A stretch of 34,502 nt of DNA from a virus (IMGVR_UViG_3300042261_002398:1-34502); one strand, 5' to 3'. Shown: positions 2,024 to 27,000, numbered from the stretch's first letter. Program-made: numbers and translations. The notes: generated by a model not told the origin, from the sequence alone.

Positions 2024-2042
2024 GCGACTGTCCGTCAGTCGC
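2024..2042 (-). other. Hairpin spanning the fibre-gene stop codon
   Basis: Perfect 7-bp stem GCGACTG / CAGTCGC with a 5-nt loop (ACGGA). The fibre-gene stop codon lies inside it. There is no T-run behind it, so it is not a typical intrinsic terminator; it may protect mRNA ends or limit readthrough to the methylase gene. The rest of the 114-bp spacer to the methylase holds no gene that I can see. Confidence 0.4.
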
Positions 2043-2673
2043 TTAAAATGCAATACGTCAATAGCTTAATGACCGTAGCTCCAGATCCGGCCGAACTTGA
2101 AACCCACTCAATAATTCCGCCACTGTCTGTGATTATGGTTATGTACCCAATTTCTCCTCCAGATCCAAACCCCACCCCAGCAATGCCACTGTCTTTGTCA
2201 GACGACGCGGCTTTGTATTTGGTCTCTCCATTTTCCCGGAAATGGACAACACCACCAGTGTCAGGCGCAACGCTCAATAGCACAAAACAACGATTCGATC
2301 CGACGATTCCCGACAGATTTAGATCTGCCCAAGCGGTTGGCATCGAGTTCGAGTAAACAACTGCGCCGCTATAGCACATTCCGGCGGCCCGCGTTCCAGC
2401 AGCCAAATCTGCGGCAGATACAACGACAACACTGGATGTCCCGGCATTCACTTCCGCCGGCGTGGCAAACCTAACGATCCCACTGATTGCGGTTGTCGCC
2501 TGTTCTGGGATGGAATTATCTAAATCTTCCAGTACAGCCTGCACATCTGTGTTAGTGGAGGAAATGCGCGAAGGATCAACGGTCACCTGCTTCGCTTGCG
2601 TTTTGGGAAGCGCGACAGCATTACCAACAGTGATTAAAATAACGGCAGGCACCAAGAATGTAATATGTCTCAT
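2035..2673 (-). CDS. Tail-fibre-like protein with Sec signal peptide
   Basis: 212 residues. Start chosen at the ATG behind AAAAGGAG. Residues 1-22 look like a Sec signal peptide (MRH, then a hydrophobic stretch, cut after AVA). The mature part contains ISGIVRFATPAEVNAG followed by a VSAADLAAG segment (about residues 63-93), the collar/fibre repeat common in phage tail fibres and side-tail fibres, and a beta-rich end (RCFVLLSVAP, VHFRENGET, GYITIITDSGGIIEW) found at the C termini of many phage receptor-binding proteins. Lying just after tail gene I, it occupies the fibre (H) position. A cleavable export signal on a fibre is unexpected, because tails are assembled in the cytoplasm; see findings. 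Confidence 0.8.
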   Translation of the reverse strand: MRHITFLVPAVILITVGNAVALPKTQAKQVTVDPSRISSTNTDVQAVLEDLDNSIPEQATTAISGIVRFATPAEVNAGTSSVVVVSAADLAAGTRAAGMCYSGAVVYSNSMPTAWADLNLSGIVGSNRCFVLLSVAPDTGGVVHFRENGETKYKAASSDKDSGIAGVGFGSGGEIGYITIITDSGGIIEWVSSSAGSGATVIKLLTYCILSD

Positions 2674-2691: not shown

Positions 2692-3045
2692 TTAATTCCC
2701 GTAATAAACAACCCTGACATCATCGTTTGCTGCGACAGGCGGGGTGAAGGTGATGGCGGGGCCAACGATCACATAATCTTCGTTTTGAACAGCCAGGAGG
2801 CGGTTAATAAAGACCTGCACGGCCGCGTCAACAACTGGGGTGTGAGCCAAAACGCATCCAGCGGTCGACCCCGTCTTGTTTTCGGAGTAGTGTGTGCCAG
2901 TCATCCGCCTCAAAATTGCCGTTCGGATCGCCAACTGGCGCAGTGGAAGGTTGTCAACACCATCAATTCCGCCCTGCACGAAGTCTGTTTCTTCGAACTG
3001 ATAAATTCCGTCCGGCCAATCACCGGTTTCGTTCTGATTTGCCAT
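2692..3045 (-). CDS. Small tail-fibre / baseplate-associated protein
   Basis: 117 residues starting MANQNETGDWPDG, chosen because GGAGG lies six bases upstream and the ATG follows the stop of tail gene I by one base. The sequence is acidic and ends in a beta-rich domain (DYVIVGPAITFTPPVAANDDVRVVYYGN is its C terminus, starting near residue 90, given here as two parts: DYVIVGPAITF and TPPVAANDDVRVVYYGN), of a type common at the ends of phage tail proteins. Directly between I and the exported fibre, it is most likely a fibre adaptor or short fibre subunit. No catalytic motif is visible. Confidence 0.65.
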   Translation of the reverse strand: MANQNETGDWPDGIYQFEETDFVQGGIDGVDNLPLRQLAIRTAILRRMTGTHYSENKTGSTAGCVLAHTPVVDAAVQVFINRLLAVQNEDYVIVGPAITFTPPVAANDDVRVVYYGN

Positions 3046-13886: not shown

Positions 13887-14333
13887 TCACTCCTTGGTCT
13901 GTTGTGTGACCCATTCCTCAACCAGCTCATTGATCTCCATCTCATTCATTGCGCTCAGCCCGAGAAATTCGCGCTGTGGAATATTGCGCTTCGGATCACC
14001 AAACTGGTGCGTTGCGGCATAGATCAGGTTGGTGCCGATCTGGACGGATGTTTTGCCGGTCACCAGATGAACCAGTGAGTCACGCAGATCTCCGTTGAGT
14101 TCGAGAATCCCGCCGCCTTTTTTCTTCCGCTTGGCATAGGCCGGGCTCAGCGCCTGCCAAGGAACCTCTCCGTGCGATGTTTTCGTTCTGGCGATCCGTT
14201 CTTCAGTCTGACTCACGATCAGCGCCCCGATCGAGTCGAGCAGCGGATCAAAGTAAGTATCCGTCAGCCGACCGATAAATGCATCGAGCTTATTAAGCCC
14301 GGCCGCTTCCACGCTGACGGTTGCTCCGGACAT
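13887..14333 (-). CDS. Phage virion morphogenesis protein (Mu gpG / tail completion family)
   Basis: 148 residues. Family marks: SQTEERIARTKTSHGEVPWQALSPAYAKRKKKGG in the middle (core: WQALSPAYAKRKKK), GGILELNGDLRDSL, and IYAATHQFGDPKR.IPQREFLGLS near the end. This is the Phage_tail_S / gpG-like 'virion morphogenesis' family, needed for joining heads to tails. It follows the small membrane gene by one base and is followed by gp37, both as expected. Confidence 0.88.
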   Translation of the reverse strand: MSGATVSVEAAGLNKLDAFIGRLTDTYFDPLLDSIGALIVSQTEERIARTKTSHGEVPWQALSPAYAKRKKKGGGILELNGDLRDSLVHLVTGKTSVQIGTNLIYAATHQFGDPKRNIPQREFLGLSAMNEMEINELVEEWVTQQTKE

Positions 14334-14334
14334 C

Positions 14335-14523
14335 TCAATTGCCCCTCGAATCAGCCGCTATCCCCACGGAGGAGTCTCTTTGTTGATCCGGCGGCGTGAC
14401 CCGCGCTGCGCCTGCCGCGATAATTCCGACAACCACAGAAAACACGACCAGAGCGACGATCGCCGCCGCCGCCACTTCCTTCCGCGCAATATCCTCCTCC
14501 AGCGCGTTTTTGACCTTACGCAT
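14335..14523 (-). CDS. Small single-span membrane protein
   Basis: 62 residues: charged N terminus (MRKVKNALEEDIARKE), one strong membrane helix (AAAAIVALVVFSVVVGIIA, residues 18-36), and a short polar end. GAGCG precedes the ATG; the stop is one base from the next gene. No family recognised. Together with the exported proteins upstream it forms an envelope-directed cluster between head and tail genes. A spanin or anchor role cannot be told from sequence. Confidence 0.6.
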   Translation of the reverse strand: MRKVKNALEEDIARKEVAAAAIVALVVFSVVVGIIAAGAARVTPPDQQRDSSVGIAADSRGN

Positions 14524-14532
14524 AGCGCTCCT

Positions 14533-15798
14533 TTATTCGACTGTGCCGCCGATGTAGTAGAGATAGTTTGTCGGCAACGTGACCTGCGTATTGGTTATGG
14601 CGACCAATGCGCATTGCACAACGGTGCCGCTAGCAACCGATGCCGGTATTGGCACAATCACCCGGAACGGCATATTCGATCCGGCAGCGCAGAACCCGTG
14701 GGTGTTGGCGAAGAAATTACTCGAGACCGTTTGGTTGGCAATATGCCCTTCCGGGGAGATTGCGTTGAACCGGAAATTCATATTAAACCCGGCTGTTGGC
14801 GTGTTTGTACTATGAGGGCCAAAAATCCACCACGACACGAAATTCGTTGCGGCCACTGGGATGGGAATGCCGACCGCCGAAGAGCTGTCAGCCCCAAAGC
14901 GAACTCCGGTGTAGCGCAACGAGATCGGCACAGGCATCTGCATTAAAACCGCACCTCCGCCAAATACTCCCGGCCACGGCACTGCGTACGAGCCTGCCAT
15001 CTGGACGGCCAGATCGGCCTGCGTGGCGACACGTTCGCCGTTTTGTTTAATGATGGCGCTAAAATCGGCCACCGATCCACTACCGCTCGGAATGGTTGCC
15101 CGGAAGTACGCATAGCTGCCGTAATTGGTCCCGGATGTCCGAAACACATAGGTTGATGCGTTGGTTATGATCCCCGCCAACGGAGCGTTTTGCCATGTAC
15201 CTGTGATTAAATTAGTCGTGTACATGATGGTCGGTTGCACCTCACCAATTGCCGTGGTGATCTCGAAATTCGGAGAGGTGAAGCGGAATGAGTTGATTTG
15301 TACAGCGGCTAGCTCACTAACGATCTCGAGCAGGGTGTTGCCATAAACGCTTAGGCGGAATTCCCCATTTTCCTCCGATATTTCCGCCGGACCGCTCAGC
15401 GCGCCCCATCCGCCCAGTGTAAGCAGTCTCCACCCCTCTCCAAGCTGTATAGCGTGGCCGTTGGCGTTTAAATCTTGCGTCAGCGCATCGCCTTCCTGCC
15501 AGCCTGCACCATCGCCAATCCGGACTCCACCGGCCGACACTCCATCCCCAACGCGCACATCTCCCGGCAAATCGGTGATGCGCACGATGACCCCTTCTGT
15601 GAGGATAGTTTCAGCCACTTCCGCCGAGGTCATTTTTGCGACGGGCGCAAGCGTTTGGTTGGCAGCGTGCGATGACAGCATCACTCCAAAAAGCAGCGCC
15701 ACCAGCACACCACCGGGATTTCGGTGAAGTTGCAAGTGTCTCATGGACAACATACCCTGCCCACCTGGGCAGTGCTGGCGGCAAATTTGATTGATCAT
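14533..15798 (-). CDS. Exported fibre-like protein
   Basis: 421 residues from the ATG behind a strong AAGGAGG; a second possible start is the ATG of MRHLQLHRN at residue 19. A hydrophobic core GVLVALLFGVMLSSHA (residues 30-45) then marks a signal peptide. The mature part begins with acidic repeats (VRVGDGVSAGGVRIGDG) and TQDLNANGHAI, typical of phage tail fibres. Residues about 190-235 (TIMYTTNLITGTWQNAP … SYAYFRATIP) resemble a module of Verrucomicrobia-type secreted proteins. The rest is beta-rich with WWIFGPHSTNTP and ends YYIGGTVE. Function unknown; a surface or virion-attached adhesin fits what is seen. Confidence 0.7.
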   Translation of the reverse strand: MINQICRQHCPGGQGMLSMRHLQLHRNPGGVLVALLFGVMLSSHAANQTLAPVAKMTSAEVAETILTEGVIVRITDLPGDVRVGDGVSAGGVRIGDGAGWQEGDALTQDLNANGHAIQLGEGWRLLTLGGWGALSGPAEISEENGEFRLSVYGNTLLEIVSELAAVQINSFRFTSPNFEITTAIGEVQPTIMYTTNLITGTWQNAPLAGIITNASTYVFRTSGTNYGSYAYFRATIPSGSGSVADFSAIIKQNGERVATQADLAVQMAGSYAVPWPGVFGGGAVLMQMPVPISLRYTGVRFGADSSSAVGIPIPVAATNFVSWWIFGPHSTNTPTAGFNMNFRFNAISPEGHIANQTVSSNFFANTHGFCAAGSNMPFRVIVPIPASVASGTVVQCALVAITNTQVTLPTNYLYYIGGTVE

Positions 15799-15809
15799 AA
15801 ATACCCTCC

Positions 15810-17099
15810 TTAAAATTTTGGCGGTCCGGGGTTGAAGTTGGTGAAGCCCATCGCGTTAAAATCCGCGTCAGTGATGCTGTCGGTATCACAGCCTAGCGCG
15901 GCAGCGTCTGCCCTGATCTGCGCATTCCCCATAAACACCGGACAATAGCCCCCCAGCGATGTGACCATTGTCCCGACAAGAATCACCCGGTTAGTTGCAG
16001 CGGCAATGCGCAAGATTGGGCTGCCAGAGTCGCCAACTATAGGGCCTTTGGCATAAAACACGCCGGGCTCGGTCGTTAGTGGAAAGATGCCGTCGTCTGA
16101 AACATGGTATCCGGCATAAGCCGCCTCATATTGATCGATCCAGAATTGAAGAAGCGTGCCGGAATAGCTGCCCCTGTAAGGTATAAAGTCAGCCTGATTC
16201 TCGGGGCATAAAAGCGCTGGAACGATGCCGTCGGGCAAAACGGAAGCACTCAACCGGCCAATACGAAAATCAGAAAAAGACTTCCGGCTTGAGATCATCG
16301 TGCGAGACACCACGGTGTTGGAGGCCGTCACAAACCGCACTGTTGCTCCAGGCGCAATCGGGAAGTGATCAGCGAACAGGATGCAGTCCGCGCCGATCAG
16401 CGTGCCAGCGCGCTGCCTGCCGCCGGTCGAGTTCCAAGGGCTAATGCACGTCAAATTTATGTCGGCAACCCAGCTGTCCGGGTTGCGTACATAATTAGTG
16501 GCCACGTGATCTTGCGCGGAAAAAACAGCCTTATCACTGCCGTCTCCCATCCGCGCGGAAATCGCCGCAGTAAACGCATAAGCGGCTGACCCTGTGACGC
16601 ATCCGACGACCACGTCGTTTGTTATGGAGGACAGTGAAACAACCAGATTCGTAGTGCGTGAGAAATCTCCGATTGTGGCGGTTACCGTGCAGGTGCCCGG
16701 AGCTACATACCAGACCTTGGCCACAGTAGTTGTCGCCACGGATGGATGGGCCGATATGACGGCCGGAGGAGCGAACGCCGCAGAGCGCACACCGGAATAT
16801 GCAATCTCCCACGAGCTGCCTTCTGCGCTATACTGCCGTCGCGACACGACAACATCCTTGTTTGTTAAGATCGACGTGGCATCTGGCACCGCATCAGACA
16901 CTTTTGAGAACGTCCACTGGAACCAGTCTGGGTAAAACCAGTCGCCATCAAGATCGGCCTGACCAACCGATTGGATCTCTAGTACACTGATTCTTCCACC
17001 AACATCCTCCGCCGGATTTATCACCGCTCCGGAGGCCCGGAGGCCAACAAGCAGCGCCAGCAGGCCAAACAAAATCGCACGTCCGTATCTGGTCTCCAT
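15810..17099 (-). CDS. Exported trypsin-like serine protease
   Basis: 429 residues with signal peptide (METRYGRAILFGLLALLVGL, cut near ASG-AV). Chymotrypsin-fold triad: His245 in LFADHFPI, Asp277 in SDFRIGRL, Ser358 in the classic GDSGSP motif (356-361). A lead-in of about 200 residues contains an Ig-like segment (GTCTVTATIGDFSRTTNLVVS). The C terminus (DADFNAMGFTNFNP) resembles ends of other phage-linked Verrucomicrobia proteases, as I recall them. AAAGG precedes the ATG. Protease genes of this kind are not part of Mu or P2. It may act in the envelope on receptors or on the exported fibre-like proteins beside it; that is inference. Confidence 0.85.
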   Translation of the reverse strand: METRYGRAILFGLLALLVGLRASGAVINPAEDVGGRISVLEIQSVGQADLDGDWFYPDWFQWTFSKVSDAVPDATSILTNKDVVVSRRQYSAEGSSWEIAYSGVRSAAFAPPAVISAHPSVATTTVAKVWYVAPGTCTVTATIGDFSRTTNLVVSLSSITNDVVVGCVTGSAAYAFTAAISARMGDGSDKAVFSAQDHVATNYVRNPDSWVADINLTCISPWNSTGGRQRAGTLIGADCILFADHFPIAPGATVRFVTASNTVVSRTMISSRKSFSDFRIGRLSASVLPDGIVPALLCPENQADFIPYRGSYSGTLLQFWIDQYEAAYAGYHVSDDGIFPLTTEPGVFYAKGPIVGDSGSPILRIAAATNRVILVGTMVTSLGGYCPVFMGNAQIRADAAALGCDTDSITDADFNAMGFTNFNPGPPKF

Positions 17100-17113
17100 C
17101 GGGATCCTTTCTT

Positions 17114-17127
17114 AAAGTCTAAGGCCG
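17114..17127 (-). repeat. Heptamer array, two degenerate units
   Basis: AAAGTCT AAGGCCG on the + strand, in the 17100-17135 spacer between the gene at 17136 and the protease gene. A worn copy of the AAAGCCT family in the same orientation. Confidence 0.5.
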
Positions 17128-17135
17128 TTTGTTTC

Positions 17136-17621
17136 CTACCACTCGCATCCGCGCAGCTCGCTGCTGCCGTCTGCCGATGCCCGGATCTCCGCCTGGGGAC
17201 AGGAAGGCCCGCCGTCGCTCCATGATCCGCGCGGCCAGAGCCGCACGCCGCCAACTCCGCCGCCGATCGTCAGATCCACAATATTGGTTCCGGCGTTGAC
17301 AATCGCGAACCCGGAGCGCGGGCCAAAGGGAACAAACTCGGCCACCACGGTGCCGTTGGTAACCGTTTCCTCAGCCGTCGGCGCGTTGGTTCCGGAGGTT
17401 CCTCCGGTGCGCACCAGATAAAACTGCTGCGCGGCCGTCATGAAATAGGTTCCGGCTGTATAGGCCGTGCTCTTTGTCCAGACCGGCACCCGGCCAACCT
17501 TCAGGTTGCGCTCCGGGAGCACCACGGTTGAATTGGTTCCGGCTGTCACCGTGAAGTTTTGCTGCGCCAGTGCGCTCAGCGCCACGACCACCAACATTCC
17601 AATCAGTCCTATGCGTCTCAT
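17136..17621 (-). CDS. Exported virion-module protein
   Basis: 161 residues, start behind AAAGGAGG. Signal peptide 1-19 (RRIGLIGMLVVVALSALA, cut before QQ). The mature protein has W.KSTAYTAGTYFMTAAQQFYLVRTGGTSG.NAPT, a module frequent in phage structural proteins (W...Y..G..V......Y....GTSG..P), then SGFAIVNAGTN, a glycine-rich strand and RLWPRGSW. The C terminus is a beta-strand ending in EW. It is the first gene of the exported trio, 14 bases after gp36 in the direction of reading. A decoration or fibre-like role is likely; export is the odd part. Confidence 0.7.
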   Translation of the reverse strand: MRRIGLIGMLVVVALSALAQQNFTVTAGTNSTVVLPERNLKVGRVPVWTKSTAYTAGTYFMTAAQQFYLVRTGGTSGTNAPTAEETVTNGTVVAEFVPFGPRSGFAIVNAGTNIVDLTIGGGVGGVRLWPRGSWSDGGPSCPQAEIRASADGSSELRGCEW

Positions 17622-17636: not shown

Positions 17637-18059
17637 CTACCAGTTTTTAAAATCACTCCGGCCTTCTTGAACAAAGCCGTCGCCGCCGGACGCCGACGGC
17701 TTCTGTGCTTCCGAAATGCCCAGATCAGCTTTGCCTTCGCCGACCCGCTTAAGCAGCGAGACGGCATTATCCCTGCGTTCCTTGATAAAGTCCGAAACCG
17801 TTGTCTCATTGCAGAGCAGGTAGGCGGCGATATCGCAGACGGCGTTCTTGAGCGCCGCCGGGACAACCGGAAGGGGCAACGCATACCGGGCGTTCAGCAG
17901 CACGTCGGTTTCAGCCGAGGCATCAGACAGGGCGGCGGCGATCCGGTCGGTGTCCGGAGCGTCGGCCATGCCGTCCTCATCGGTATCCAGCCCGGCAATC
18001 ACCAGCAGCCGGGCTTCCTTCAACCGGGACATCAAGTCGTCTTGTGTTGCGTATGCCAT
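17637..18059 (-). CDS. Mu gp36-like head-tail protein (DUF1320)
   Basis: 140 residues. MAYATQDDLMSRLKEARLLV followed by DTDRIAAALSDASAETDVLLNARYALPLP and LKNAVCDIAAYLLC is the DUF1320 / gp36 family seen after the major head gene in Mu-like phages (blocks quoted are from separate positions; core YATQDDLMSRL and LNARYALPLP). These are adaptor-like helical proteins thought to connect head and tail. The last 25 residues include SGGDGFVQEGRSDFKNW, also typical. Confidence 0.88.
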   Translation of the reverse strand: MAYATQDDLMSRLKEARLLVIAGLDTDEDGMADAPDTDRIAAALSDASAETDVLLNARYALPLPVVPAALKNAVCDIAAYLLCNETTVSDFIKERRDNAVSLLKRVGEGKADLGISEAQKPSASGGDGFVQEGRSDFKNW

Positions 18060-26526: not shown

Positions 26527-27000
26527 TTACCCCTTCATCCGTTTAAACTTCTCAAGACTCCGTCCTGCCACATACAGTCCGAGCAACGAAAAATAGCCAA
26601 TCAGCAGCGTGCTATCAAAAAATCGCTCCCGGCCCAACATGTGCCACACTTGATCCACCACCAGCATCACCGTCATTGCATACGCCGCCGTTGGCCGGAC
26701 GCGCTTCGTAAACAGGTCGTCTTCGTCGGTCTGGGCCTGATGAATCTTCGCCAGCGCCAGCTGGCCATCCGCCTCCGCACGGGCTTCGGCTGCCAGACGC
26801 TTTTGGGTTTCGGACTGCACCTGCCATTCCAGCTTTTCAATTTCAAACGCAACCCGCTCATTGGCCAACTCAGCCAGCACCGTCGTATTGCTTAGCGTGG
26901 CCCGTTCTTCCGGGGTAAACCTCTCATCATCCAGCAGCTTAACGACCGGCTCAATCGCTCGAGAAAACAGCCCGACAATCGCTCCGAAAACCGCACTCAT
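26527..27000 (-). CDS. Holin-like protein (3TM holin family)
   Basis: 157 residues. N-terminal amphipathic segment (MSAVFGAIVGLFSRAI), a charged helical middle (EKLEWQVQSETQKRLAAEARAEAD), then VRPTAAYAMTVMLVVDQVWHM and STLLIGYFSLLGLYVAGRSLE as two or three membrane helices. The motif KRVRPTAAY corresponds to the RP...Y region of the 3TM holin family used for phage or gene-transfer-agent release. It should make inner-membrane lesions at lysis. No endolysin gene is next to it. Confidence 0.75.
   Translation of the reverse strand: MSAVFGAIVGLFSRAIEPVVKLLDDERFTPEERATLSNTTVLAELANERVAFEIEKLEWQVQSETQKRLAAEARAEADGQLALAKIHQAQTDEDDLFTKRVRPTAAYAMTVMLVVDQVWHMLGRERFFDSTLLIGYFSLLGLYVAGRSLEKFKRMKG

Follow-up and report, generated by a model that had tools for sequence, protein, structure and literature searches.

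Tail fibres determine which bacteria a phage infects, and in textbook accounts their assembly is cytoplasmic. In T4 and P22, fibres and tailspikes can be added in vitro to particles that are already finished; to our knowledge, no tailed phage fetches its fibres from the periplasm. Among phage proteins that reach the bacterial envelope, the lipoprotein Llp of phage T5 acts on FhuA. It serves in superinfection exclusion (PMC9586334) and, like other exported superinfection-exclusion proteins, resembles the proteins described here, as predicted, in being phage-encoded, envelope-exported and receptor-directed. Llp is, however, a single outer-membrane lipoprotein, whereas the present locus holds several soluble fibre-like proteins in a late virion operon. 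Pneumococcal PblB, which is homologous to phage tail fibres, has a predicted signal peptide and acts as an adhesin (PMC4508584); PblA and PblB of streptococcal phages are tail proteins active at the cell surface, as the present proteins may be. They are single proteins of unrelated phages, and it is by description that they are likened to the cassette presented below. We know of neither such a cassette nor a split of stub and tip in PblA or PblB. In the literature searched, which left aside preprints and most subscription journals, PblB was the only entry on signal peptides in tailed-phage fibre cassettes, and no description of a two-compartment morphogenesis route for tailed phages was found in it.

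Organization of the locus

The window (the whole stretch of DNA analyzed, an entire IMG/VR virus record of 34,502 bp) is a Mu-like phage with a Mu gpT major head protein, Mu portal, gp36, Phage_tail_S and P2-type baseplate genes. Between gp36 and Phage_tail_S lies a cassette of three genes with predicted signal peptides (A161, B429 and C421) and one gene for a single-pass membrane protein (D62). All open reading frames that a first-pass annotation had proposed here, including the small membrane protein gene, were found in place on the minus strand.

17637-18059, minus strand: Phage_Mu_Gp36 (PF07030, 1.9e-28), upstream border of the cassette
17136-17621, minus strand: A161, 161 aa; predicted signal peptide MRRIGLIGMLVVVALSALA cut before QQ, CBM5/12-like tailspike module, C-terminal beta domain
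15810-17099, minus strand: B429, 429 aa; predicted signal peptide, middle domain, C-terminal trypsin-like (PA-clan-type) domain at about 15813-16592
14533-15798, minus strand: C421, 421 aa; predicted signal peptide, best from M16/M19, cut between MLSSHA and ANQ
14335-14523, minus strand: D62, 62-aa single-pass membrane protein, last cassette gene
13887-14333, minus strand: Phage_tail_S / tail completion (PF05069, 1.5e-21), downstream border of the cassette

From gp36 through the cassette to Phage_tail_S the gaps between genes are 15, 36, 11, 9 and 1 bp. Promoter-like sites numbered 3 against 2.9 expected, with 0 on the coding strand; no clear terminators and no GC shift were seen. The short gaps and the lack of excess promoters point to co-transcription of the cassette with the head and tail genes. 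Pfam assigned no family to A161, B429, C421 or D62, and PHROGs gave a single weak match for the four, to A161 (0.12). When genome contigs were scanned, the only matches were Oceanobacter Mu-like prophages.

Elsewhere in the window, positions 1-1089 encode, from base 1, a host-like secreted right-handed beta-helix protein that is probably host flank and whose only matches were distant and to plasmid sequence. A holin-like gene lies at 26527-27000 (PF11351, slightly under cut-off); no endolysin was noticed in the window. In a related contig, L063, a threonyl-tRNA synthetase gene lies past the phage end.

Recurrence of the cassette in related phages

Searching with the major head protein brought up 48 related contigs. 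An insertion at the same point, between gp36 and Phage_tail_S, was found in seven phages (the window, L002, L003, L004, L005, L008 and L052, the last on a contig that ends before Phage_tail_S). Recurrence in related phages, which the first-pass annotation had proposed as a check, was thus borne out in six relatives. The cassette is absent from more distant Mu-like phages: gp36 and Phage_tail_S adjoin directly in L009, L013, L031, L039 and L046. Gene content was variable. Type A (A161) was present in six phages and types E, F, G and H also occurred; the L008 cassette carries a YadA-head-like protein, that of L003 an E-type orthologue, and those of the window and L005 B429-like proteases. In L002 and L003 the place of D62 as last cassette gene is taken by a rhomboid protease (PF01694, 38.9 and 52.1 bits against a cut-off of 22.6).

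L002 9354-9947: phage-borne rhomboid intramembrane protease, late operon (PF01694)
L003 15483-16061: phage-borne rhomboid intramembrane protease, late operon (PF01694)

The dN/dS values of cassette genes (0.09-0.27) were similar to those of gp36, Phage_tail_S and core virion genes; by this measure the cassette genes are under purifying selection.

Signal peptide prediction

Signal peptides were called with a home-made scorer of the n, h and c regions and not with SignalP; the scorer was positive for 1 of 21 antisense ORFs and for 5-15% of composition-matched shuffles. With automatic gene calls in the related-phage set, a signal peptide was predicted in 18 of 23 cassette genes versus 12 of 143 others (Fisher p=3.5e-12), and this recurrence across cassettes excludes a chance origin. 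At the chosen starts, 23 of 25 non-membrane cassette candidates passed the score, the 25 being what is left of 29 cassette ORFs once D62, both rhomboids and a soluble ORF of 70 aa are set aside. Of the 12 calls outside the cassette, five were tail-fibre tip genes and two were lipoproteins; the other five, on head genes, resembled false positives. Calls on cement proteins (L002-L004, L052) were rejected as false positives, the window homologue being without a hydrophobic stretch.

For the window, the first-pass annotation had read signal peptides on the genes at 17136, 15810 and 14533, and these scored 5.68, 4.99 and 5.26, respectively. A tripartite n/h/c N-terminus with an AxA-type site, as called by the home-made scorer, is the pattern of predicted Sec/signal peptidase I substrates, and the cassette proteins, together with the tail-fibre tip described below, are predicted to be exported via Sec.

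Modules of the cassette proteins

The predicted cut in A161 falls after LSALA and before QQ, and homologues occur in L002, L003, L005, L008 (two copies) and L052. Its AF2 model was folded in part only (mean pLDDT 53). The well-modelled part, which was used for superposition, matched the receptor-binding domain of the cyanophage Pam1 tailspike (7eea) in Foldseek with an rmsd of 1.2 A across 53 aligned columns, at a probability of 1.00 and E 0.027. What had been noted as a virion-type GTSG module is therefore a module of the phage tailspike or chitin-binding type. Unlike the Pam1 tailspike, A161 is small and stands alone, with a predicted signal peptide.

In B429 the complete His/Asp/Ser triad that had been read from the sequence was confirmed: H245, D277 and S358 (H76, D108 and S189 within the protease domain) are invariant in an alignment of 15 homologues, the others being 25-37% identical to B429. 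The GDSG.P-type motif shows small variations in this alignment, for example GDSSNP in two members. The family profile searched against the PDB placed trypsins first (E 0.0099-0.049), and Pfam Trypsin matched 1 of 15 members (0.048), with the window protein below reach; the AF2 model of the B429 protease domain had a pLDDT of 36. The raw B429 sequence found no match among viral contigs, whereas an alignment of B429 with its L005 counterpart did find relatives, and those of the C-terminal domain come from twenty loci, including L005 itself and the truncated L090. The family shares with trypsin-like (S1, PA-clan) serine proteases the H-D-S order and the GDSG.P motif. It differs from typical S1 proteases in lying mostly at the C-terminus of phage proteins without a signal peptide, some with fibre- or head-decoration-type regions. 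Since the same domain occurs elsewhere in such proteins, it may serve as a virion module and not as an enzyme dedicated to processing; here it is combined with a predicted signal peptide. In L071-L089, this trypsin-like domain family has no Pfam or PHROG assignment and occurs in tail- or decoration-like proteins, some on contigs over 80 kb.

The signal peptide of C421 reached its score of 5.26 only with a start at M16 or M19. The best Shine-Dalgarno sequence stands at M1, a start that would make the n-region unusually long; the start is thus ambiguous, and the signal peptide is less certain here than in A161 or B429. The C421 repeat VRVGDG..TQDLNANGHAI had no database match. C421 and cassette protein E of L052 share a domain (4e-7), the alignment being supported over residues 114-239 only.

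The tail-fibre locus

A second site with a signal peptide, absent from the first-pass annotation, was found among the tail genes of the window. The order there is gp25, baseplate J, Tail_P2_I, a 117-aa stub gene and a 212-aa signal-peptide tip gene.

2692-3045, minus strand: tail-fibre N-terminal stub, 117 aa, without signal peptide
2035-2673, minus strand: tail-fibre tip gene, 212 aa; predicted signal peptide MRHITFLVPAVILITVGNAVA cut before LPKTQA; phrog_910 tail collar fibre, 3.7e-8

The stub aligns with the start of two tail-fibre families (phrog_4209, residues 1-45; phrog_3100, residues 1-50) and is kept in 5 phages at 66% pooled identity. In phrog_4209, whose N-terminus is matched by the stub, the L057 orthologue of the tip gene matches the C-terminal residues 280-377 (2.3e-13); the tip gene of L059 matches PF21882 Gp53-like_C over cut-off (4.1e-14) and that of L063 matches phrog_11355 (3e-12). 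Tip-gene homologues carry a predicted signal peptide at 5 of 5 loci (the window, L057, L059, L063 and L064). Pooled identity along the tip gene was 30% in the n and h regions and 70% at the AxA site; the mature N-domain had 67% and the tip itself 20%. As judged from the sequences, this is the profile of a cleaved signal peptide followed by a swapped receptor-binding tip, the hydrophobic part drifting while AxA is kept. With its fibre-profile match, its position after the baseplate genes and Tail_P2_I (the stub between) and its conserved N-domain with exchangeable tip, the product of 2035-2673 resembles a phage tail fibre and is a candidate virion part.

P2/Mu-type tail fibres (phrog_910, phrog_4209, PF21882 Gp53-like_C) share with this locus the place after Tail_P2_I, the mature N-domain and the swapped C-terminal tips. 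They differ in that Acinetobacter HFM1, E. coli Midge and Vibrio VnaP, the three known syntenic cases examined, each have one single-gene fibre without a signal peptide after the Tail_P2_I/baseplate genes, whereas here a stub without a signal peptide is followed by a tip gene with one. The C-terminal parts of the HFM1 (3e-17), Midge and VnaP fibres are homologous to tip genes of L057, L059 or L063. Given these single-gene fibres at the same place, the fibre appears to have been split in this lineage, with a signal peptide gained by its receptor-binding half. The possibility of one fibre gene interrupted by a frameshift was rejected, as stub and tip have separate starts and Shine-Dalgarno sequences in 5 phages.

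No other tail-fibre gene, and no tip gene without a signal peptide, was recognized in the window, which leaves the signal-peptide tip as the only candidate found for receptor binding. No docking domain was recognized on the predicted exported tip, and the 117-aa stub may by itself form a whole short fibre, with the tip free for another role. Small lipoproteins of the baseplate region with a VSG/C lipobox, possibly spanin-like, were seen in L057 (3980-4264) and L064 (852-1118).

A second phage backbone and extended head proteins

Signal peptides were also predicted in a second, non-Mu backbone represented by L094 (G009), L095 (G008), L097, L099 and L100 (major capsid protein, MCP, phrog_1328, 1.8e-17), which has a distant match to Salmonella phage 7-11. 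The gene directly after the MCP carries a predicted signal peptide (MKK...AQA/AEWR) in 5 of 5 phages, a presence that is not independent for all five, the scan patterns for this gene lying partly within the signal peptide. Three of these phages (L095, L094 and L097) have fibre genes with predicted signal peptides. The L095 fibre is collagen-like (phrog_5073, 3.8e-18, measured on L090, which is the same contig), and those of L094 and L097 have AxGWGNHA repeats. In its N-domain the L095 fibre shares 48% identity with a cassette protein from the Mu-like L004, and the signal peptides of the two have little in common. Judged by this identity, modules move between unrelated phages with a signal peptide retained.

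Among the more distant Mu-like contigs, eight encode a gpT-type MCP that itself has a signal-peptide-like N-terminal extension of 44-54 aa.

L006 9863-10921: extended major head gene
L010 6269-7342: extended major head gene
L007, L011, L026, L031, L043 and L046: extended major head gene

In most of these the best Shine-Dalgarno sequence stands at the extended start and the usual start is replaced by a non-start codon; Pseudomonas relatives (61% identity) start exactly past the extension. An apparent signal-peptide gene before the MCP in L006 and others was rejected, being the MCP itself with its N-terminal extension. A cement-type head gene before the major head gene of L012 (8711-9916) also has a hydrophobic N-terminal extension.

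Discussion

We tentatively favour, at somewhat less than an even chance, the reading that the cassette and tip proteins are peripheral, receptor- or glycan-facing parts of the virion that would be made via the host Sec pathway and be added to virions at lysis. Assembly of the capsid, the tail and the fibre stub would be cytoplasmic. Late in infection the tip (2035-2673), A161, the protease-tipped B429 and C421 would be translated from the late operon and exported, with trimming by signal peptidase I. After folding in the periplasm, they would meet virions once the inner membrane opens at lysis and would dock on the stub as well as at the head or neck; surplus exported tips may coat the receptors of the dying cell. 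The predicted signal peptides, fibre-tip homology, split of stub and tip, tip swapping, purifying selection and recurrence were demonstrated at the level of sequence, and from these we infer actual export, periplasmic maturation, docking after lysis and the targets of the proteases. The virion reading is preferred because no other fibre-tip gene was recognized in the window and because the same rule applies beside the head gene of the second backbone.

The first-pass annotation had proposed an envelope-exported phage apparatus; its signal peptides, recurrence, virion-type modules and triad stand, whereas no support was found for proteins that are only displayed or released by the infected cell, or for a protease that cuts fibres, receptors or competitors. 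As exported decoys, which is the main rival and which we consider rather unlikely, fibre tips and glycan binders would occupy receptors and block superinfection and re-adsorption to debris, and the proteases would trim envelope targets. Decoys explain the signal peptides equally well, would be expected to show the same late-operon position and tip domains matching the phage's own receptor, and would suit the proteases encoded alongside; precedents are superinfection exclusion by T5 Llp (PMC9586334) and the pneumococcal adhesin PblB (PMC4508584). However, a second tip gene that lacks a signal peptide and could serve the virion was not recognized in the window, neither an outer-membrane anchor nor a lipobox was seen on the proteins, and a signal peptide on the MCP-adjacent gene of the second backbone is not obviously decoy-like. 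Since signal peptides also lie on what is apparently the only tail-fibre tip of the phage, a role in the virion is no less likely than one as a decoy.

That the hydrophobic N-termini are membrane anchors or assembly peptides, with the usual cytoplasmic assembly and no export, we regard as unlikely. The similar prefix on the MCP of some unrelated or distant Mu-like phages, where export seems implausible, speaks for it, but AxA-type sites are kept in 5 of 5 fibre tips despite the drifting hydrophobic part, the n-regions are positive, and the feature is common to different protein families of one cassette. Exported proteins carried by phages, Lom and Bor among them, and the varying content of the cassette among phages, would also fit moron (lysogenic-conversion) genes, by which prophage-borne host-surface adhesins benefit the lysogen. 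This we hold to be quite improbable, given genes on the same strand with 1-36 bp gaps, promoters not in excess, no clear terminators and no GC shift, tail-fibre homology at the fibre locus and a fixed site between two morphogenesis genes. Independent moron units, with a promoter or terminator of their own between late genes, were rejected on these gaps and promoter-like sites (3 vs 2.9).

Taken more broadly, the virion reading would amount to two-compartment assembly in at least two unrelated backbones, with fibres and decoration-type proteins passing via Sec to the periplasm and joining particles only at lysis, which is possible though doubtful. The conserved signal peptide on the receptor-binding tip, with the same rule in the second backbone, would mean that either assembly follows a new route or the secretion of receptor-binding decoys is a recurrent strategy. 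It would also affect the recognition of fibre genes in metagenomes, as here the fibre genes resemble host secreted proteins.
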